A stretch of 23,335 nt of DNA from a virus: the IMG/VR virus record IMGVR_UViG_3300033153_006485, positions 1 to 23,335 of that record. One strand, given 5' to 3'. The position numbers were made by a program, and so were the translations under genes. Numbering within the stretch: position 1 is the first letter of the stretch; every line of letters begins with the position of its first letter. Positions 675-16,711 of this stretch are shown piece after piece. The notes under the pieces were generated by a model. That model ran no database searches. It was not told the origin of the DNA and worked only from the letters and a program-made list of their open reading frames with translations.

Positions 675-964
675 GCTTTTTTCTCCTCCAACAGTGCCAC
701 GAATGGCTTGAGGGCCTCTGCAATAGCATCCATTGCCGCTTTCCAGGTTCCAGCATCCCTGACCAGCGGTGGACCATTCTGCTCGGCAACGAGCATATCT
801 GCAGCTCGTGCTAGCGCCTTAACGTCGTCGAAGCTGTAAAGTGGTTCGTAGTGCAGCGTGATGGCCTTCTCCAGCGGGTCGCCGATAAAGTCACCCATGC
901 CGACAACACGCACAGGAGTCCCACATTGTGAACAGTATTGCGAACAGTGTTCAACCACCTTCAT
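671..964 (-). CDS. Hypothetical protein (97 aa) with N-terminal CxxxCxxC knuckle
   Basis: The start ATG overlaps the stop of the upstream methyltransferase gene (ATGA), so the two are probably translated in tandem. The N-terminus (residues 7-15) has the spacing C-x3-C-x2-C-G, like half a zinc ribbon; no second pair is seen, so metal binding would need another ligand or a partner. The remainder is predicted helical, with alanine-rich segments (DVKALARAADMLVA and AMDAIAEALKPFVALLEEKKA). I do not recognise the family. Position suggests an accessory protein of the leftward operon. Confidence 0.6.
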   Translation of the reverse strand: MKVVEHCSQYCSQCGTPVRVVGMGDFIGDPLEKAITLHYEPLYSFDDVKALARAADMLVAEQNGPPLVRDAGTWKAAMDAIAEALKPFVALLEEKKA

Positions 965-1518
965 GATTCGCCTTTCTGCAACACCGAAAATAAACGCACT
1001 TTCTTACATGAACCTGTCACAACAGCGATCATTGCTCTTGGAGTCCAATCTTTGCGGTTGTAATTCGCCATGATGAAATGCAGCATCCCAAAGCAGCCAT
1101 TGGGCTTAAGCACTCGGTGCACTTCACGGCAAAACCGATTCAGCGGAAACGGTTTGCATCCGTATTTCTTCGCGTCGTCAGCACTATAGGGTGGGTCACT
1201 TAGGACCAAATCAAACGATTCATCTTGGAATGGAAGCGCGACGGCATCACCAACGACCTGTGGAACACGAACTCCATCATGCACTCGGTCCATTGTTACG
1301 CCTGGGCCTATGACCTTACCTGAAGGACAGTGCAGAATTTCTTGCGCTGTTGGAAAGAGGGCCAATGCTCGTTTTAGGAACGTCGGCGGGTATTGCCCAT
1401 AGAGCGTCGATTTATGCCAAGCTGTACCACAGTACCAAACGCCGTAAATCCAGCCTTTATCCTCAACAGTCTTAGGGTACTTCGGAAAGGTAGCATTCAC
1501 ATTCGCTACATCAAGCAT
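961..1518 (-). CDS. Class I SAM-dependent methyltransferase, DPPY type
   Basis: The 185-aa product carries GDAVALPF (residues 90-97) followed by SFDLVLSDPPYS (101-112), the acidic loop plus motif IV layout of small phage and prophage methyltransferases. DPPY is the catalytic motif of amino-methylating (N6-adenine or N4-cytosine) DNA enzymes. The SAM-binding motif I is weak: residues 60-71 read EILHCPSGKVIG, not FxGxG. After motif IV come RFCREVHRVLKPNGCFGML, the usual helix-strand pair. There is no separate target-recognition domain, so specificity is unknown. An AAAGGAAAG site precedes the ATG. A role in modifying phage DNA against host restriction is plausible. DNA as the substrate is inferred from DPPY only. 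Confidence 0.75.
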   Translation of the reverse strand: MLDVANVNATFPKYPKTVEDKGWIYGVWYCGTAWHKSTLYGQYPPTFLKRALALFPTAQEILHCPSGKVIGPGVTMDRVHDGVRVPQVVGDAVALPFQDESFDLVLSDPPYSADDAKKYGCKPFPLNRFCREVHRVLKPNGCFGMLHFIMANYNRKDWTPRAMIAVVTGSCKKVRLFSVLQKGES

Positions 1519-2058: not shown

Positions 2059-2766
2059 TCACCTCCGGTCAAGTTTGTACAACTTCTGCTCAGCAATATC
2101 CAGAATCATCTCGTGCGAATTAAGGTCACCACCGATGAACCGTTTAACTGCATGAGCGATAAACCCACCGGCGATTTGTGGACAGTAAACGATACTTCGA
2201 GCCGAGCATGGAAGCTCCAACTCTTCGCCTTCAAGTGACTTGCAGTACTCGTTTACCGCAAGTTGGTCGAGCAGGCTAATGGTGAAAAGGTGCAAGATTT
2301 CTAAACCCATGCGAGCGTCAATCAGGATGCTTGGATTTGTGTTGTTTTGGGCCATCCGGCGGTAGACTTGCCAAACTTGCCTTCGAGCAGCGAGAGAATC
2401 AACACAAGCAAGTGTGACGTCTGCAGCGGGGAGCCGCGTATCTGCAGTGACCGGCCATTCGTATGCGTAAACGTTCCTAGGCGTTACACCTGCATCATCT
2501 ATTATATAGTGCTTCAACGCATCAACTTTAGATTCATCAATGTTCTGCGTGGAAAACAATTGACATCCGACGTTTTCTGCATCGACCGTATCAGGGTCAT
2601 ACAGGTGAAAAGAACCTACGCCAAGTTTCGCAAGGGCGTACGTTGCAAAGGAGCCTATCGCGCCACAGCCGATGACGCTGACAGTCGTCGCTTGAAGTGC
2701 GTCAAATGAAACAGCCGTTTCCTGCCTTGCCCGAAATGTTCTTTGCTCTTCTTCCGTTAACATCAT
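2059..2766 (-). CDS. ThiF/E1-like adenylyltransferase of the ubiquitin-like cassette
   Basis: The 235-aa protein has the ThiF/MoeB/E1 adenylation core: FRARQ near residue 11 (like the conserved RYxRQ opening), VSVIGCGAIGS (29-39, GxGxxG nucleotide loop), LYDPDTVDAENVG (55-67) with ATP-contacting aspartates, K80 and CVDS at 121-124. A downstream PCSARSIVYCPQIAGG segment (186-201) matches the end of the fold, and C187 is a candidate thioester cysteine. The usual arginine of the N-x-x-R-Q motif is replaced by cysteine (NVGCQ), and the MoeB/ThiF zinc cysteines are absent. It probably adenylates the Ubl C-terminus and passes it to the E2-like protein. The ATGATG start overlaps the JAB stop (ATGA) with an AAGGAGAGG site. 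At 235 aa it is a minimal E1 without extra domains. Confidence 0.87.
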   Translation of the reverse strand: MMLTEEEQRTFRARQETAVSFDALQATTVSVIGCGAIGSFATYALAKLGVGSFHLYDPDTVDAENVGCQLFSTQNIDESKVDALKHYIIDDAGVTPRNVYAYEWPVTADTRLPAADVTLACVDSLAARRQVWQVYRRMAQNNTNPSILIDARMGLEILHLFTISLLDQLAVNEYCKSLEGEELELPCSARSIVYCPQIAGGFIAHAVKRFIGGDLNSHEMILDIAEQKLYKLDRR

Positions 2767-3980
2767 GTCCTCTCCTTAAGAAGCTCGGCTGGAAGCCGCT
2801 TGGTTAATGCAGCAAACACCTTAGCAACCTTCTCTTGGAATGGTCTTGTCACAATTCGGTCACTTGGCCACGTAATAGCATCGCCCACTCGAATACAAAT
2901 CTGCGCAAACTTACAGCTCTTGAGGTCACAACCAGCGTACGTCGTTCGCTTCTTGCCAGTCTTGTCAACTGTTGTAATCTGCCTGTTGCACGCAAATTTT
3001 CGCAAGGGCGTCTTGCGAAATGCCTGCAAGAGAAGTTCGGCGTTCTTCGGTGCTGCAGCTTGGCGTCTTTGGAATCGTCGGGCCAAGTCCGTCACGATTT
3101 CGTTGCGTTGCCGCGTTGAATGCACGCCTAAAACCCAGCGATAGTCGAACTTCTGCCAAGTCGGATTGCAGATTGGAGTAAACGGACAAGTCTTGCTACA
3201 GCCGGCTCCATCAGAGCATTCAAGCTCTGCAATGGGGGTGGCTTTAAATTCAATGAGCAGGTCAACCTCGGAGGGCGTAAGTTCACCATCCGGCGCACTG
3301 TGTGCAGGTTTCGCTGGCTGTTTTGCTCCATAATGCGTGCCAAAGAGCGTTGTTTTTGGCTGCGCCAGTCGCTCGACTGTAGGGCTTTCGTGTGTGCTCG
3401 ACGTATCAACAATGCTGCCCACCACGAGTGGTGCTTGACGGGTTGCAGCTTCCTTCCAGGTTTCAACGGCCTTCTCTCGTATTTGTGCATTGTTCAAAGC
3501 CACGTGCACCGGCAAGCCTGTTATTTCTACGCCTGTTGGAAACGAAACCTTTGCCACGAATGCCTTACGTCCGAGGAGAACTGAAACTACGTACGGATAC
3601 CCTGAGTCGAGCATTCGTCGAATCTGCGTGTTATCCTCGTTACTCCATGGACTTGGACCAAGCGTTGCGACCATTGGATGACTGTGTATCCAGCAGTTAT
3701 ACGCCTTGCGCACTTCAGGCTTAAGCTGCGCAGCGGCATCAGCAAACTCTTCCTCTTTAAGCTCAACATGAGCACCAGACACATCCTGTGCTGGAAACCA
3801 CAGGCTGTGAATGTAAAGCGTTCCATCTGCCGCTTCGACTTGGCCCAAAGCCATAAACTCGTCAGGCTTCGCTGCGTCGAAAACGCCAATAAGCTGATTC
3901 GCAGCATCACTTGAAAGCGCAACGTGGACAATGACACCCGTTCCACCTGACCCCTTTGGCAGCTCAATGAGGTTGTCCAT
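2763..3980 (-). CDS. JAB/JAMM metalloprotease with duplicated Cys-rich C-terminal domain
   Basis: Residues 1-170 of 405 form a JAB (Mov34/MPN) domain with an intact zinc site: E41 in DEFMALG, H99 and H101 in IHSHP, and S113-x2-D116. Such proteins hydrolyse isopeptide bonds or process Ubl C-termini, so this is the likely deconjugase of the cassette. Residues about 170-245 are a low-complexity linker. The C-terminal part has two four-cysteine sets (C255, C261, C265, C271 and C331, C351, C356, C362) sharing G-C-x3/4-C-x5-C, presumably zinc or Fe-S sites; their role is unknown. The start at 3980 follows GAAAGGA. An in-frame ATG at 4028 would overlap the E2-like gene. It lies 22 nt after E2 and overlaps E1. 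Confidence 0.87.
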   Translation of the reverse strand: MDNLIELPKGSGGTGVIVHVALSSDAANQLIGVFDAAKPDEFMALGQVEAADGTLYIHSLWFPAQDVSGAHVELKEEEFADAAAQLKPEVRKAYNCWIHSHPMVATLGPSPWSNEDNTQIRRMLDSGYPYVVSVLLGRKAFVAKVSFPTGVEITGLPVHVALNNAQIREKAVETWKEAATRQAPLVVGSIVDTSSTHESPTVERLAQPKTTLFGTHYGAKQPAKPAHSAPDGELTPSEVDLLIEFKATPIAELECSDGAGCSKTCPFTPICNPTWQKFDYRWVLGVHSTRQRNEIVTDLARRFQRRQAAAPKNAELLLQAFRKTPLRKFACNRQITTVDKTGKKRTTYAGCDLKSCKFAQICIRVGDAITWPSDRIVTRPFQEKVAKVFAALTKRLPAELLKERT

Positions 3981-4002
3981 AGCTTTTCCTTTCAGCTTGA
4001 TT

Positions 4003-5562
4003 CTAACCTGTCGCCTTTGCCTCGTCAATCAGCTTTCTGCGCCGTGCCTCCCAAGCAATCGTAGCAGAGCGGGCCGCTTGATAAGCAGCGTCATCCTGCT
4101 GTCCTCGACGCAGTTCCCTTTCTTCACGAAGTGCCCTAATTGGTGGATAGTGCCGGGTGAGCGCCTCTCCAAACCCACAACCGACTCCTGTAAGAGCTGC
4201 CGGGCAGGCTTTTACAGCTTCGCCCCAAGCTGCCAGGTCGTCCGTTGTACTTGTGCAGACACAGGCAGCACAGTTAGTAGGATGCACGTATGCTCGTATG
4301 GGGCAAACGTCATAACAGATGTCCGTCTGTCTGTCTTTGCACCGTGAACATGCCTGTTTGCTGAAACTTAGTGGAGTCTTCGGACAATATGCTGCACACA
4401 CCATCGTATGGGCATATTCGCAGTCTGTGCATGGGTCCAACGTAGCAAGTACCGCCCGAAAATCGTCGAACATCGGGTCAGTTGATGCCGCCGCAGCGTC
4501 AATCCAGCTTCGGAGTGTGTGGTATGGATTTGCTGCGCCGAATGTCCCCAAGATGTGGCGCACGACTTGTAACATCATACGGACGTTTCGTGCCTTAGCC
4601 GCCTGAGTGAACTGCCTGGCACCAGCTCCACCAAGGCAGACATGACCACTGTTGTCAACGTGTGGATGGAGCCCATTATGTGAGACCAACGGGTCTGTGC
4701 AGGGGGCCACGTTCATGTATGGACGTTCCACAAACGAATCATATCCGTCAATGTGGACAGTCCATTGACCAAAGTTCAGGTCGATGTTCAACTCATTATC
4801 GTGCAAGATAAGGTCGTTGGTTATCGCCGTGATGCGTGTTGGACTTGTTGCTCCAACGAAGACATACCCTGCAACCGGTTCCTTGTTCGTAAGTAGGGCT
4901 CTCAGTCCTTCAGGGTCTTTTGCCCCTTGGAGTAACCTCGGGATCGTGGTAGCCTGACCTACACCTAGGCAAAACCGTACGTGCTTCTTCAAACAACGCC
5001 TTGCAGCCAAGACCGTTGCATGATAGAGCTTTGGGTCTTCTATGTCCCAGGAAGCCGTAGGCCAAAATATCCAAGGTGCGTTAGCTGCTCCCCGTGCGTG
5101 CCAGCTCCACCGATTTGGCTCAGATCCCCACTGCGTTGTGTCCCTCAACTGCCTAGAAAAGCCGGATGGGGGAACACCTCTCATGTAGCGGATATGTGTA
5201 TTAGGTGGATCGTCAACCGGCGCAAAGTACCCATCAACTGAGTGTACGCTGTATTCCCCGATGTGGATGATGATCGTAGGTGCGTCAGGGTCAAGCCCCG
5301 TTAGAGGCTGCCTTGAATTTCCACAGACACGGAGTGTGAGACTCGAAAGATTAGATCGTGCAAAAACATCCTCTCCGAACTTCCTAATGCGCTCCAATCG
5401 AGCTGCTGAGAGTTGTGTGCTCTGGGGTCCATCAGGCTCAGTCGTGACGTTTAGCTCTGTCACGACCTGCAACCCTGAAGTCGCTGAACTGGGCGCTTCA
5501 ACCCAAAGCTCTGGTGGGTTGAAGGTCGATGCTGGATAGAGCCGCAGCTCGTAGATGCTCAT
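4003..5562 (-). CDS. E2-like (UBC-fold) conjugating protein with C-terminal Cys-rich domain
   Basis: This 519-aa protein contains H299-P300-H301-V302 then G306-x-V-C309-L, which reproduces the eukaryotic E2 signature HPN[IV]-x3-G-x-V-C-L with the same spacing; C309 is the predicted thioester cysteine. It is preceded by a strand-like WTVHIDGY and ERPYMNVAP, and followed by a helix (residues 318-340), consistent with a UBC fold at about 230-350. Residues 378-393 and 405-420 are two copies of C-x2-C-x7-C-x3-C-P, followed by CAACVC (431-436) and further cysteines, so a metal-binding domain that might serve as a built-in E3-like or scaffold part. The N-terminal 230 residues are unrecognised, and the last 45 are highly charged and helical. 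The ATG at 5562 has AAGAGGAGG upstream. Confidence 0.82.
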   Translation of the reverse strand: MSIYELRLYPASTFNPPELWVEAPSSATSGLQVVTELNVTTEPDGPQSTQLSAARLERIRKFGEDVFARSNLSSLTLRVCGNSRQPLTGLDPDAPTIIIHIGEYSVHSVDGYFAPVDDPPNTHIRYMRGVPPSGFSRQLRDTTQWGSEPNRWSWHARGAANAPWIFWPTASWDIEDPKLYHATVLAARRCLKKHVRFCLGVGQATTIPRLLQGAKDPEGLRALLTNKEPVAGYVFVGATSPTRITAITNDLILHDNELNIDLNFGQWTVHIDGYDSFVERPYMNVAPCTDPLVSHNGLHPHVDNSGHVCLGGAGARQFTQAAKARNVRMMLQVVRHILGTFGAANPYHTLRSWIDAAAASTDPMFDDFRAVLATLDPCTDCEYAHTMVCAAYCPKTPLSFSKQACSRCKDRQTDICYDVCPIRAYVHPTNCAACVCTSTTDDLAAWGEAVKACPAALTGVGCGFGEALTRHYPPIRALREERELRRGQQDDAAYQAARSATIAWEARRRKLIDEAKATG

Positions 5563-5585
5563 GTTGCACCTCCTCTTTTGAATAA

Positions 5586-5640
5586 GCATGTGGGCCGAGG
5601 TCACGTTAGTAGGACGAACGAAACGGCTCGGCCCACAAGC
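5586..5640 (-). promoter_or_regulatory. Long hairpin between Ubl and E2-like genes
   Basis: The arms 5586-5599 and 5627-5640 pair over 14 positions with a single T-T mismatch (10 uninterrupted pairs of GTGGGCCGAG with CTCGGCCCAC), leaving a 27-nt loop. It fills most of the 87-nt Ubl-E2 gap and has no T-run, so it is more likely a 3'-end stabiliser or processing/attenuation site than an intrinsic terminator. Such an element would favour more Ubl mRNA than enzyme mRNA, which suits a modifier needed in excess; that part is inference. Confidence 0.6.
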
Positions 5641-5649
5641 ATCACCGGA

Positions 5650-5859
5650 TCAAGCCCCAGCCATCTTCGGGATGACCAAGATTTGATCGCCATTGCGAAC
5701 AACTGTCTCGTCTGAGCAGCCGTTCGCGTTCAGGCGAACCTGATGCCCAGCATCGACAGCAATGTTCGCCCCAGCCAGCGCATCACCGACGTCTGCACCT
5801 TCAGGAAGGTGCACCGTCACGCTGGCACCACCCAGCTTCTCAACTGTCACGTCCGGCAT
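5650..5859 (-). CDS. Ubiquitin-like beta-grasp modifier (ThiS/MoaD-like, 69 aa)
   Basis: The ATG at 5859 follows an ideal AGGAGGAAGAAAG site, so the mature gene is 69 codons rather than the longer in-frame extension. The protein has the ThiS/MoaD/Ub pattern: two opening strands (VTVEKLG, ASVTVHLPEG), a helix region (VGDALAGA), strands VRLNANG and the hallmark NGDQILVIPK ending at the C-terminus. It ends MAGA, so the terminal pair is Gly-Ala instead of Gly-Gly. Next to E1-, E2- and JAB-like genes it is the presumed conjugated modifier. No tail follows the GA, so no C-terminal trimming seems needed unless A69 itself is removed. A purely sulfur-carrier role is unlikely given the E2. Confidence 0.8.
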   Translation of the reverse strand: MPDVTVEKLGGASVTVHLPEGADVGDALAGANIAVDAGHQVRLNANGCSDETVVRNGDQILVIPKMAGA

Positions 5860-5998
5860 CTTTCTTCCTCCTAACGTGACCTTGAGAGTTTGCCCCGGCG
5901 TCCTTACCGAGGTACTTCCCACAGTCGACGACCTTTCGGCCTTTAACTATCAGTGTTCCACCGTTTCGCACTGCAAAAGACGCCAAACTTGCCATCAT
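5840..5998 (-). CDS. Hypothetical protein (52 aa), first gene of the leftward operon
   Basis: A double ATG at 5998/5995 follows AGAAGGAGG with optimal spacing, and the stop at 5840 overlaps the Ubl start by 20 nt, so the Ubl ribosome site lies inside this frame. The peptide has a strand-like opening (FAVRNGGTLIVKGRKVVDC) and a basic, disordered tail (HVRRKKDAGRDS). No family is recognised. It may be a true small protein of the Ubl system or chiefly serve to couple translation into the Ubl gene. The leader upstream carries two copies of an 18-nt repeat. Confidence 0.55.
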   Translation of the reverse strand: MMASLASFAVRNGGTLIVKGRKVVDCGKYLGKDAGANSQGHVRRKKDAGRDS

Positions 5999-6058
5999 CT
6001 TGCCTCCTTCTAGGGTTCACAAAACTCTAATCGGGCGGGTTTCGCCGCGCCGCCGGCA

Positions 6059-6103
6059 GCAGAAGTCGGCCCGGTTTGCGGCGCGCAGAAGTCGGCCCGG
6101 TTT
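6059..6103 (-). repeat. Two tandem copies of an 18-nt leader motif
   Basis: Read on the minus strand, AAACCGGGCCGACTTCTG occurs twice 26 nt apart (6060-6077 and 6086-6103), between the predicted leftward promoter and the first ATG of the operon. Single-mismatch copies occur in the same sense orientation ahead of the two rightward early genes (6582-6599 and 7118-7135). The position in leaders suggests a phage-specific transcription or translation control site. Confidence 0.75.
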
Positions 6104-6121
6104 CGCTGAACATTGCTCCAA

Positions 6122-6150
6122 ACTATAAATGAATTGACAATTTTTGTCAC
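6122..6150 (-). promoter_or_regulatory. Predicted sigma70-type promoter of the leftward operon
   Basis: On the minus strand GTGACA (6150-6145, one change from TTGACA) is separated by exactly 17 nt from TATAGT (6127-6122, one change from TATAAT). The start of transcription would be near 6115, about 115 nt ahead of the first ATG, and both leader repeats would be transcribed. It overlaps TTTTGCTGAACGATT (6153-6167), a motif repeated elsewhere, so a regulator could control it. Confidence 0.6.
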
Positions 6151-6187
6151 TTTTTGCTGAACGATTTTGAACGTTACGGTACACATT

Positions 6188-6503
6188 GGGGGTAAATAGG
6201 GTCGGTGTAAGTCCTTTCGACCGAACGCTTTACGTCTTGTGTGACAGAGCGTGACAGAGTTTTTTGTCGTCGTAAGTTGTTTGTCTCTCTTATCTTATGA
6301 TAAATAAAGCCTATATATATAAAAACCCGGGAGGACATCTTAGAAAACCATATGTCTCTAGGGGTTTGGGGGTAATCTGGTCTTTTTCCACCTTAAGTCG
6401 TTGCCCTCATTGGACTTCTGTGTAACCAAATCTCTGTCACGCTCTGTCACAGAGGGCGTAAGTCGTTTGTCTCATTGAGTTTGCATTTAGAGCATTTACC
6501 CCC
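6188..6503. other. Candidate replication origin / regulatory hub with iteron-like repeats
   Basis: This non-coding stretch has a near-symmetric layout. GTGACAGAGCGTGACAGAG (6241-6259) is exactly inverted at 6432-6450, and each arm is two copies of a 9-mer separated by one base. GGGGGTAAAT at 6188 and GGGGGTAAT at 6368 face ATTTACCCCC at 6494-6503. GTAAGTC/T-type repeats begin near 6206, 6270, 6393 and 6459, two of them followed by GTTTGTCTC. In the centre lies an AT-rich run (about 6286-6325) with TATATATATAAAAA. Iterons around an AT-rich core between divergent gene sets are typical of phage origins, but no initiator gene is visible to confirm it. I see no convincing gene from 6000 to 6640. 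Confidence 0.5.
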
Positions 6504-6531
6504 GAGCGTACCCCATTTTGCTGAACGCTGA

Positions 6532-6552
6532 ACAAACTATAACCTAGTTTGT
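6532..6552. promoter_or_regulatory. Operator-like inverted repeat with possible -10
   Basis: ACAAACT (6532-6538) and AGTTTGT (6546-6552) are perfect 7-bp inverted arms around ATAACCT. The sequence TATAAC (6538-6543) inside could be the -10 element of a rightward promoter for the early cluster, though no good -35 is seen. A TTTTGCTGAACG copy (6516-6527) sits directly upstream. Confidence 0.35.
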
Positions 6553-6581
6553 CTAAAGTCTACAAAGTCCACAACTGGCGC

Positions 6582-6599
6582 AAAGCGGGCCGACTTCTG
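6582..6599 (+). repeat. Third copy of the 18-nt leader motif
   Basis: AAAGCGGGCCGACTTCTG differs from the leftward leader copies at one position and lies about 45 nt ahead of the first rightward early frame, in sense orientation to it. Confidence 0.7.
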
Positions 6600-6644
6600 A
6601 TTTCGGTTTGGCTGGGGTTTCAAGTGTCTTTAGGAGAAAGTGCG

Positions 6645-6753
6645 ATGACGGTATGCAGAAGAACTCTGGGAAGCGTACGATGCTGGTGTGGCCGAAGGTA
6701 TCGAGTCTGTTTTCAGTGACGCTGTTCTAGGTCCAGAGGAGGAACATGATTGA
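6645..6753 (+). pseudogene. Small early gene apparently frameshifted near its start
   Basis: A good AGGAGAAAG site precedes ATG 6645, but that frame gives an unlikely cysteine/arginine-rich 24-mer. One base over, from about 6652, the frame reads AEELWEAYDAGVAEGIESVF and ends PEEEHD with its TGA overlapping the next ATG (6746), exactly the gene-to-gene overlap seen elsewhere in this phage. That frame has no start codon: TGA lies just upstream at 6646-6648. The simplest reading is a single-base indel within the first few codons, either a real mutation or a sequence error; a programmed shift is less likely. The intended product would be an acidic helical protein of roughly 35 aa. Confidence 0.45.
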
Positions 6754-15909: not shown

Positions 15910-16642
15910 GAGCAGAAAAGCCGTAGATGGAATGGTTCCCCCGAGCCTGGGCATCTACGACGAGGAAGAGACCCAAAGCGTCAAGCTCGGCACCAGAGTC
16001 GAGTTTGACGATGGTTCGGTCTTCCGTTACGTTCACGATGACGGAACTGGTATCGCTGTTGGAATGCTCGTTCAGTACGGCGGCACGGTCAAAGACATCG
16101 ACGCCTCAGACCCGGTTATCAGCGTGACGAACTATGATGGTACGTCCAGCGAATACCCGTGGATTGAGTTCACATCCGGTTCAACTGACCTTACCGCGCA
16201 CGCCTACGACAACGGGTTCTTCGTTGTTGACAGTGGTACTGGTGCGGCGCAGCGCAGGAAAATCCGGGAGAACACAGCGTCAATCGTCAAGCTGTACGAC
16301 CCGCTTATCACGGCGGTTACTGCGAGTTCTCACGGCCACCTGATTCCTAACCCGTACGAGGATGTTAAACTTTCAACGGCGAGCGGTAGCTCGGTTGGGC
16401 TCATCCTTGGCGTCACAGTCAGGGCGATTACGGCAGGCTACTATGCGTGGATTCAAACGCGCGGCTGGGCCGTGGTTCAGGACACAGCAACACCGGCACA
16501 AGGTATTCCGCTGATTCAGGGAACGACCGCCGGTAAGACCCTGGAGCTGGCAGAAGACACGTTCGGCCAGGTGATTGCGGTTCCGCCGTATACCAGCGGC
16601 ACGAATGGCGATGCCATGTTGGTTTACCTGAAGTGTGAATAA
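15902..16642 (+). CDS. Putative capsid decoration / head-stabilising protein (246 aa)
   Basis: Directly after the major capsid gene with AAAGGAAAG before ATG 15902, this beta-rich protein has a central TVRAITAGYYAWIQTRGWAVV segment (about residues 180-200), a motif I associate with capsid-adjacent decoration proteins of many phages, followed by GIPLIQGTTAGKTLELA. The N-terminal part reads GTRVEFDDGSVFRYVHDDGT. It would bind the outside of the capsid lattice. The call is from position and motif memory; a head fibre base is an alternative. The stop directly abuts the tRNA-like element. Confidence 0.6.
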   Translation: MPESRKAVDGMVPPSLGIYDEEETQSVKLGTRVEFDDGSVFRYVHDDGTGIAVGMLVQYGGTVKDIDASDPVISVTNYDGTSSEYPWIEFTSGSTDLTAHAYDNGFFVVDSGTGAAQRRKIRENTASIVKLYDPLITAVTASSHGHLIPNPYEDVKLSTASGSSVGLILGVTVRAITAGYYAWIQTRGWAVVQDTATPAQGIPLIQGTTAGKTLELAEDTFGQVIAVPPYTSGTNGDAMLVYLKCE

Positions 16643-16711
16643 GCGGACGCTTTTGGAAAGCAGCTGGTTGCCAGTTAGCTCACGCGGGTTCGACTCCCGC
16701 CGTCCGCTCCA
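16643..16711 (+). tRNA. tRNA-Gly(GCC)-like RNA with reduced D arm
   Basis: It starts on the base after the preceding stop codon. Acceptor stem GCGGACG (16643-16649) pairs with CGTCCGC (16701-16707), discriminator U and encoded CCA (16709-16711). Anticodon arm GCTGG-TTGCCAG-TTAGC (16663-16679) has U33 and anticodon GCC. A 4-nt variable loop follows, then a perfect T arm GCGGG-TTCGACT-CCCGC (16684-16700). G1-C72, C2-G71 and U73 are bacterial glycine identity features. The D region is only 13 nt (CTTT-TGG-AAAG plus two bases), with no usual 8-9 linker or D loop. At 69 nt it is shorter than a normal tRNA. It may be functional, decaying, or an RNA-processing signal. Confidence 0.65.

Follow-up and report, generated by a model that had tools for sequence, protein, structure and literature searches.

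A predicted ubiquitin-like conjugation and deconjugation cassette carried by phages

Introduction

Bacterial cells are known to use ubiquitin-like conjugation as a weapon against phages. The locus described here raises the question of what such machinery does when it is encoded by a phage. The analyzed stretch of DNA, referred to as the window, has 23,335 bases and comes from IMG/VR, where it is an incomplete virus record. In this window, genes for a ubiquitin-like protein (Ubl), an E2-like protein, a JAB peptidase and an E1-like protein are found next to each other.

If phages in many lineages, including cultured ones, carry a conserved version of this set, then phages would also use reversible protein tagging. 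Gene annotations such as “thiamine biosynthesis protein” would be corrected, and the additional families (E1, E2, JAB and Ubl) are relevant to how ubiquitin signalling arose in eukaryotes. Operons of the Ubl-E1-E2-JAB type were predicted in bacteria by Iyer et al. in 2006, who also described Ubl and JAB in lambda-type tails (TAPI-JAB); these phage cases comprise Ubl and JAB only, without E1 and E2 (PMC1779556).

The cassette and its phage context

The plus strand of the window harbors genes for the small and large terminase subunits (the latter phrog_38, 1e-79), a major head protein (phrog_9953, 4e-57) and an SU10-type adaptor, as well as a weak match to a portal. These genes identify the contig, at the sequence level, as a phage. 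The cassette is located at 2059-5859 of the minus strand, and its transcription points away from the structural genes (Table 1). The order is Ubl-E2-JAB-E1, with gaps of 87, 22 and -4 nt, and the ORFs are preceded by recognisable ribosome-binding sites. The original prediction of four consecutive genes on one strand, with overlaps or short gaps, is thereby confirmed.

Two other parts of that prediction hold only partly. Late genes are indeed found nearby, but they run (from terminase onward) in the opposite direction and are separated from the cassette by a spacer of some 0.8 kb; on its own strand, the cassette is flanked by small ORFs and a methyltransferase-like gene. A single promoter-like site is located upstream of the cassette, as proposed, but such sites are not in excess in the window (7 vs 5.0 in shuffles, sd 2.4). 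A terminator scan of the window also performed no better than shuffles. The neighbours of the cassette in the window point to no target, and replication genes are absent from this fragment.

The spacer between the divergent gene blocks (5998-6750) contains long inverted repeats (6224-6263/6428-6467 and 6053-6080/6579-6606) as well as direct repeats, and is possibly a regulatory region or an origin. A tRNA-Gly (GCC) is found at 16640-16707, amid the structural genes.

Table 1. Positions of the cassette genes, predicted functional residues and nearby features in the window
Feature	Position	Strand	Basis or remark
E1, 235 aa, single adenylation domain	2059..2766	-	Pfam ThiF
E1 conserved Cys187	2206-2208	-	invariant in 33 relatives
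JAB/JAMM peptidase, 405 aa	2763..3980	-	motif, profiles and Foldseek
E2, 519 aa: N-terminal region, UBC-like core (~residues 230-360) with motif HPHVDNSGHVCLGG, cysteine-rich C-terminal region	4003..5562	-	
E2 predicted catalytic cysteine, Cys309	4636..4638	-	conservation in 45 relatives
E2 cysteine-rich region, residues 378-462, 13 Cys	4177..4431	-	Cys positions and counts
Ubl, 69 aa, beta-grasp, SAMP2/ThiS-like, single domain	5650..5859	-	profiles
Ubl C-terminus ...VIPKMAG-A	Gly68 5656-5658; Ala69 (terminal) 5653-5655	-	
Possible 52-aa ORF	5840..5998	-	overlaps Ubl start; own RBS-like sequence
Promoter-like site (weak evidence)	6122..6150	-	upstream of cassette, 10/12 matches
Methyltransferase-like gene	961-1518	-	same strand as cassette

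Identification of the four genes

Profiles built from the relatives, i.e., without the window protein, single out exactly these four ORFs among 184, with E-values of 1.4e-14 (Ubl), 1.5e-17 (E2), 4.8e-16 (JAB) and 1.3e-50 (E1); the next-best ORF has E > 1 for all four. Because the E2 profile still yields 1.4e-6 when its active-site motif is masked, the motif used for scanning (see below) is not what carries the E2 result. The four identifications are mutually independent and, as far as sequences can tell, support a complete conjugation and deconjugation set. Taken singly, E2 and JAB had no match in Pfam, PHROG or PADLOC or, using tblastn, in phage records, and single-protein searches of the PDB with E2, JAB and Ubl gave chance matches only.

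The window E1 matches Pfam ThiF with E = 5.9e-18. Residues G33, G35, D57, D59, N65, K80, D123, R128, R152 and C187 are invariant in 33 relatives, consistent with an adenylation domain having the Asp/Lys/Arg set and the catalytic Cys. In the PDB, the E1 family profile finds ThiF (9e-22) and also UBA5.

For the E2 family profile, the best match in the PDB is human UBE2W (E = 4e-4), followed by dozens of other E2s. H299, P300, H301 and G306 are invariant and C309 is conserved to at least 90% in 45 relatives. At the profile level, the 519-aa protein is a UBC-fold E2 with a catalytic Cys, as originally predicted. Structure prediction combined with Foldseek, suggested as a check, was successful for JAB, where the model matches Rpn11, but not for E2, where no significant match was obtained with a low-confidence model (mean pLDDT 61). 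Because this model makes the Foldseek search uninformative, the E2 identity rests on profiles, motif and context. Cysteine-rich tails like that of the window E2 are found in about a dozen related E2s. The region is probably zinc-binding and, we infer, has an E3-like role.

In JAB, the residues E41, H99, H101, S113 and D116 constitute a complete JAMM motif (E, HxH, SxxD), invariant in 36-37 relatives, and Prok-JAB is matched by 31 of the 37 relatives. The family profile finds Rpn11 (1.7e-13) and JAMM1 in the PDB, and the JAB model matches Rpn11 (2e-7) and other JAMM enzymes, including BubCD, in Foldseek. The C-terminal half of the protein is cysteine-rich (residues 255-362).

The Pfam ThiS profile matches the window Ubl with E = 4e-4, just below the Pfam cut-off, and the Ubl family profile has SAMP2 as its best match in the PDB (1e-10), with ThiS/MoaD also found. 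Iterated profiles identified 40 Ubl relatives, nearly all adjoining cassette genes. The protein is a beta-grasp Ubl with a conserved C-terminal glycine, which is penultimate in the window (G-A). The C-termini of the relatives mostly end at this glycine or 1-4 residues beyond it (GG, SG, AG, KGN and similar), and therefore fit what a trimming JAB would require. Ala69 could either be trimmed by JAB, like the ends of other Ubl precursors, or itself be the conjugated end, as is tolerated in some CBASS; conjugation by CBASS Cap2 tolerates a C-terminal Ala (PMC10097602). One related Ubl gene (L037:10546-11175) codes for a 210-aa protein with three Ubl units in tandem, resembling a polyubiquitin precursor.

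Relatives in viral contigs and isolated phages

Single-sequence searches of viral contigs with E2, E1 and JAB found no relatives. Only the active-site DNA pattern opened the family: a scan of these contigs for DNA that encodes the window's E2 motif, HPHVxxxGxxCLG, yielded 51 stretches. Nearly all are E2-like, and most have genes with the JAB motif and E1-like genes alongside. With the window proteins as queries, blastp detected E1s in ~40 of these loci and, in several of them, Ubl, E2 and JAB, and iterated profiles collected 42 E1, 55 E2, 46 JAB and 41 Ubl members.

The cassette is found on about 45 viral contigs, mostly with the same gene order. In most loci, across unrelated viral contigs, the Ubl-E2-JAB-E1 order with short gaps or overlaps is preserved; variants have Ubl last, two E2s or E1 ahead of E2. 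Tandem E2 genes are seen in four cassettes (L025, L027, L042 and L051), with one copy lacking the standard motif in L025 and L051.

A terminase is found on 21 of the 43 viral records with the cassette family (phrog_2 in 17, Terminase_6N in 14). The head-protein family of the window is present in only 2 of these 43 records, which indicates that different phage lineages carry the cassette. The nearest phage by major head protein (L054, 77%) begins downstream of the cassette, and no E1 was found in the other head-protein relatives. Genes for DnaB helicase, primase, SSB, Sak4 and Gam are located near cassette relatives.

Cultured phages also carry related genes. In crAss001 (MH675552.1), gp76 (E1) and gp77 (JAB) are strong family matches. 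An E2-like HSHV...PCTG segment in gp78, and a Ubl-like start followed by KSG and a long extension in gp79, were recognised by eye, the profiles being not significant. Flavobacterium phage FpV4 (gp50-gp53) is similar, with E1 and JAB identified by profile and E2 and Ubl by motif only. The Ubl-like proteins of both phages have KSG or KSGG followed by a long C-terminal extension, and genes for a primase and a uracil-DNA glycosylase are found beside both sets. The E1 and JAB genes are currently labelled “thiamine biosynthesis protein”, “metalloprotease” or hypothetical. What crAss001 gp76-79 or the FpV4 set tags can now be tested in culture.

In the Xanthomonas jumbo phage PhiXhv-16 (L104:2760-6633), an 892-aa protein bears the E2 motif (1.6e-10) in its C-terminal third, has a Cys-rich tail and is followed by an E1 (3e-45). 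The 892-aa protein is preceded by a protein ending in ...KASGG, noted by eye (profile not significant), and no JAB was found in this phage.

The gene identities, the conserved catalytic residues, the conserved operon and its distribution among viruses are thus matters of observation. That the phage itself carries the modifying machinery, as originally suggested, is borne out by the full four-gene set with intact catalytic residues, which is phage-borne elsewhere too. The accompanying statement that no characterised phage-borne set of all four parts was known needs qualification. Relatives are carried by ~45 viral contigs and by cultured phages, but no paper describing a complete phage-borne cassette was found in the open-licence literature, the scope of our search. 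A survey of 224 jumbo phages and two 2026 jumbo-phage works, searched by term, mention neither JAB nor ThiF nor a system of this kind.

Relatives in cells and the E1 tree

The same motif scan applied to one genome per species gave 41 matches, of which ~16 have strong family members, mostly in metagenome-assembled genomes (MAGs). No terminase was found on the E1-bearing contig in the 15 cellular assemblies tested, and some of the relatives have cellular neighbours, i.e., electron-transfer flavoprotein genes (L097), SIR2-STALD (L061) and Cpn60 (L071). It therefore seems, from these sequences, that the family is common to viruses and cells. Because some relatives reside in cellular assemblies, the viral use may have been preceded by a function in cell defence or physiology. 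The cellular relative at L061:2261-3697 has an IS21 helper gene close by, in addition to SIR2-STALD.

In the E1 tree, virus and MAG sequences are intermixed on one side of a split with support 92/97. The other side holds ThiF/MoeB, PRTRC, multiubiquitin and BIL/Bub-like bacterial E1s, together with a divergent phage E1 (L105). The window E1 is found inside the viral/MAG group, with L047 and L034 (98/88). E1 matches that cover at least 80% of the protein make up 43 of 89 in annotated phages and 0 of 85 in plasmids.

Comparison with known systems

The systems BIL, Bub and CBASS are described in the literature as cellular. BIL (BilABCD) has the same four components as the window cassette, in the same order, with a JAB expected to pre-process the Ubl, and to this extent the originally proposed likeness stands. 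The features that define BIL are different, namely two consecutive Ubl domains in BilA, a CEHH motif (Cys, Glu at +6, His at +8 and His at +13) in BilB and, in BilD, an inactive and an active adenylation domain together with a Cys domain of approx. 80 aa (PMC11354881). In contrast, the window Ubl is a single 69-aa domain, the E2 has HPHV...CLG with Cys309 followed by LGGAGARQFTQAAKAR, i.e., without E or H at the CEHH places, and the E1 has 235 aa and one domain, without the double adenylation and Cys domains. On these three grounds, membership of BIL was rejected.

Citrobacter BubCD is matched by the JAB model (2e-5, Foldseek) and by the JAB and E1 family profiles (2e-11 for E1), with scores far below those of Rpn11 and ThiF. 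In BubCD the two matches are joined in one chain, whereas the window has separate genes.

The PRTRC plasmid cassette (ParB, ThiF, proteins A-F) also keeps Ubl-sized, JAB, E2-like and ThiF genes together, and its layout, on a reading of the sequences, is comparable to that of the crAss001 E2-like protein. However, the window E1 scores 36.2 bits against a PRTRC_ThiF cut-off of 144.75 and is separate in the E1 tree; PRTRC membership was rejected on this basis. A ParB-like gene is found near a few cassette relatives, e.g., L033. Among the ORFs near the window cassette none was recognised as ParB, only the methyltransferase-like neighbour having been compared with family libraries.

CBASS Cap2/Cap3 resemble the window cassette in combining E1-E2 conjugation with deconjugation by JAB, and a C-terminal Gly or Ala is tolerated. 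However, in Cap2 the E1 and E2 are fused, and it is the cGAS-like enzyme itself that is tagged, whereas the modifier in the window is a small Ubl.

Among solved structures, those of the archaeal SAMP2/JAMM1 and Caldiarchaeum Rpn11-like systems are the closest to the Ubl family and are also close to JAB, but these systems are cellular while the window cassette is viral. SAMP systems are not known to have an E2. The cassette belongs to a widespread, virus-carried variant of ubiquitin-like conjugation that is distinct from BIL and apparently undescribed so far.

Proposed function and alternatives

We consider it likely that the phage encodes its own complete system for ubiquitin-like conjugation and deconjugation, acting on intracellular proteins. 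We infer all targets and every biochemical step, the latter from the conserved residues. The JAB peptidase would cut off the residue(s) beyond the C-terminal glycine of Ubl (...KMAG|A), after which E1 would adenylate the glycine and form a thioester via Cys187. Ubl would then be handed to Cys309 of E2, whose fused zinc-type region may help to pick the target. Proteins within the infected cell would be tagged in this way, and JAB would also take Ubl off again. We tentatively regard replication or host proteins during infection as the likeliest targets, and these are favored over virions because replication genes are the neighbours of the relatives.

A different role, which we view as rather unlikely, is exclusion of superinfecting phages by BIL-like attachment of Ubl to their components, with the carrier being spared by JAB or by lack of the target. 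BIL, composed of the same four parts, attaches Ubl to the central tail fibre of phages and thereby blocks infection (PMC11364771), and the neighbour of one cellular relative (L061), SIR2-STALD, belongs to a defence-associated family. The features that define BIL are, however, not found in the window cassette, and relatives are located by replication genes rather than in identified defence clusters. In addition, exclusion late in infection is of little benefit to a lytic phage; among the window genes identified here, none is an integrase or a repressor.

Modification of the phage's own capsid, tail or assembly proteins was among the roles suggested in the original prediction, and is improbable. 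Structural genes adjoin the cassette in the window, and lambda-type tail assembly genes hold both a Ubl and a JAB domain (PMC1779556). As a first guess it is disfavoured because the cassette is placed opposite the late genes, being transcribed away from them, and because its relatives are found beside replication genes, in replication modules. Furthermore, the main text of the crAss001 virion paper names no gp76-79 among the virion proteins.

Even less probable is a sulfur-carrier pathway, in which Ubl would be a ThiS/MoaD-type carrier, E1 a ThiF/MoeB and JAB a processing enzyme, with no tagging involved. Ubl and E1 do resemble ThiS and ThiF, and ThiS/MoaD-JAB-E1 sulfur operons have been described (PMC1779556). 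This pathway was rejected because an E2 with a conserved catalytic motif occurs across the whole family, the genes identified next to the cassettes include none for sulfur or cofactors, and the E1s are apart from ThiF/MoeB in the tree.

Fusion of a host operon to a phage contig by misassembly is very improbable and was rejected: the exact junction is represented by a single assembly, because the window is an incomplete fragment and L054 starts downstream of the cassette, but base composition is even across the junction, at least 21 contigs with a terminase carry related cassettes, as do isolated phages, and the nearest E1 (L047) resides on a 77-kb contig with a terminase.

Returning to a phage-encoded system acting on intracellular proteins, a more speculative extension is that complete Ubl conjugation systems are a common but unrecognised toolkit by which tailed phages, among them Bacteroides crAss001, Flavobacterium and jumbo phages, control replication or host proteins during infection. 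Cellular defence versions may then be exchanged with viral ones, and some viruses may link the tag to unfolding or degradation. On one contig with the Ubl-E2-JAB-E1 operon (L003), whose viral nature is less sure because no terminase was found on it, a gene for a Clp-type AAA+ unfoldase (Clp_N, AAA, ClpB_D2-small; L003:2874-5390) follows E1, with one small gene between. Together with the replication and recombination neighbours of other relatives, this unfoldase suggests that the targets are intracellular and perhaps, in certain cases, turned over, and its position downstream of the operon suggests tag-directed unfolding or degradation.
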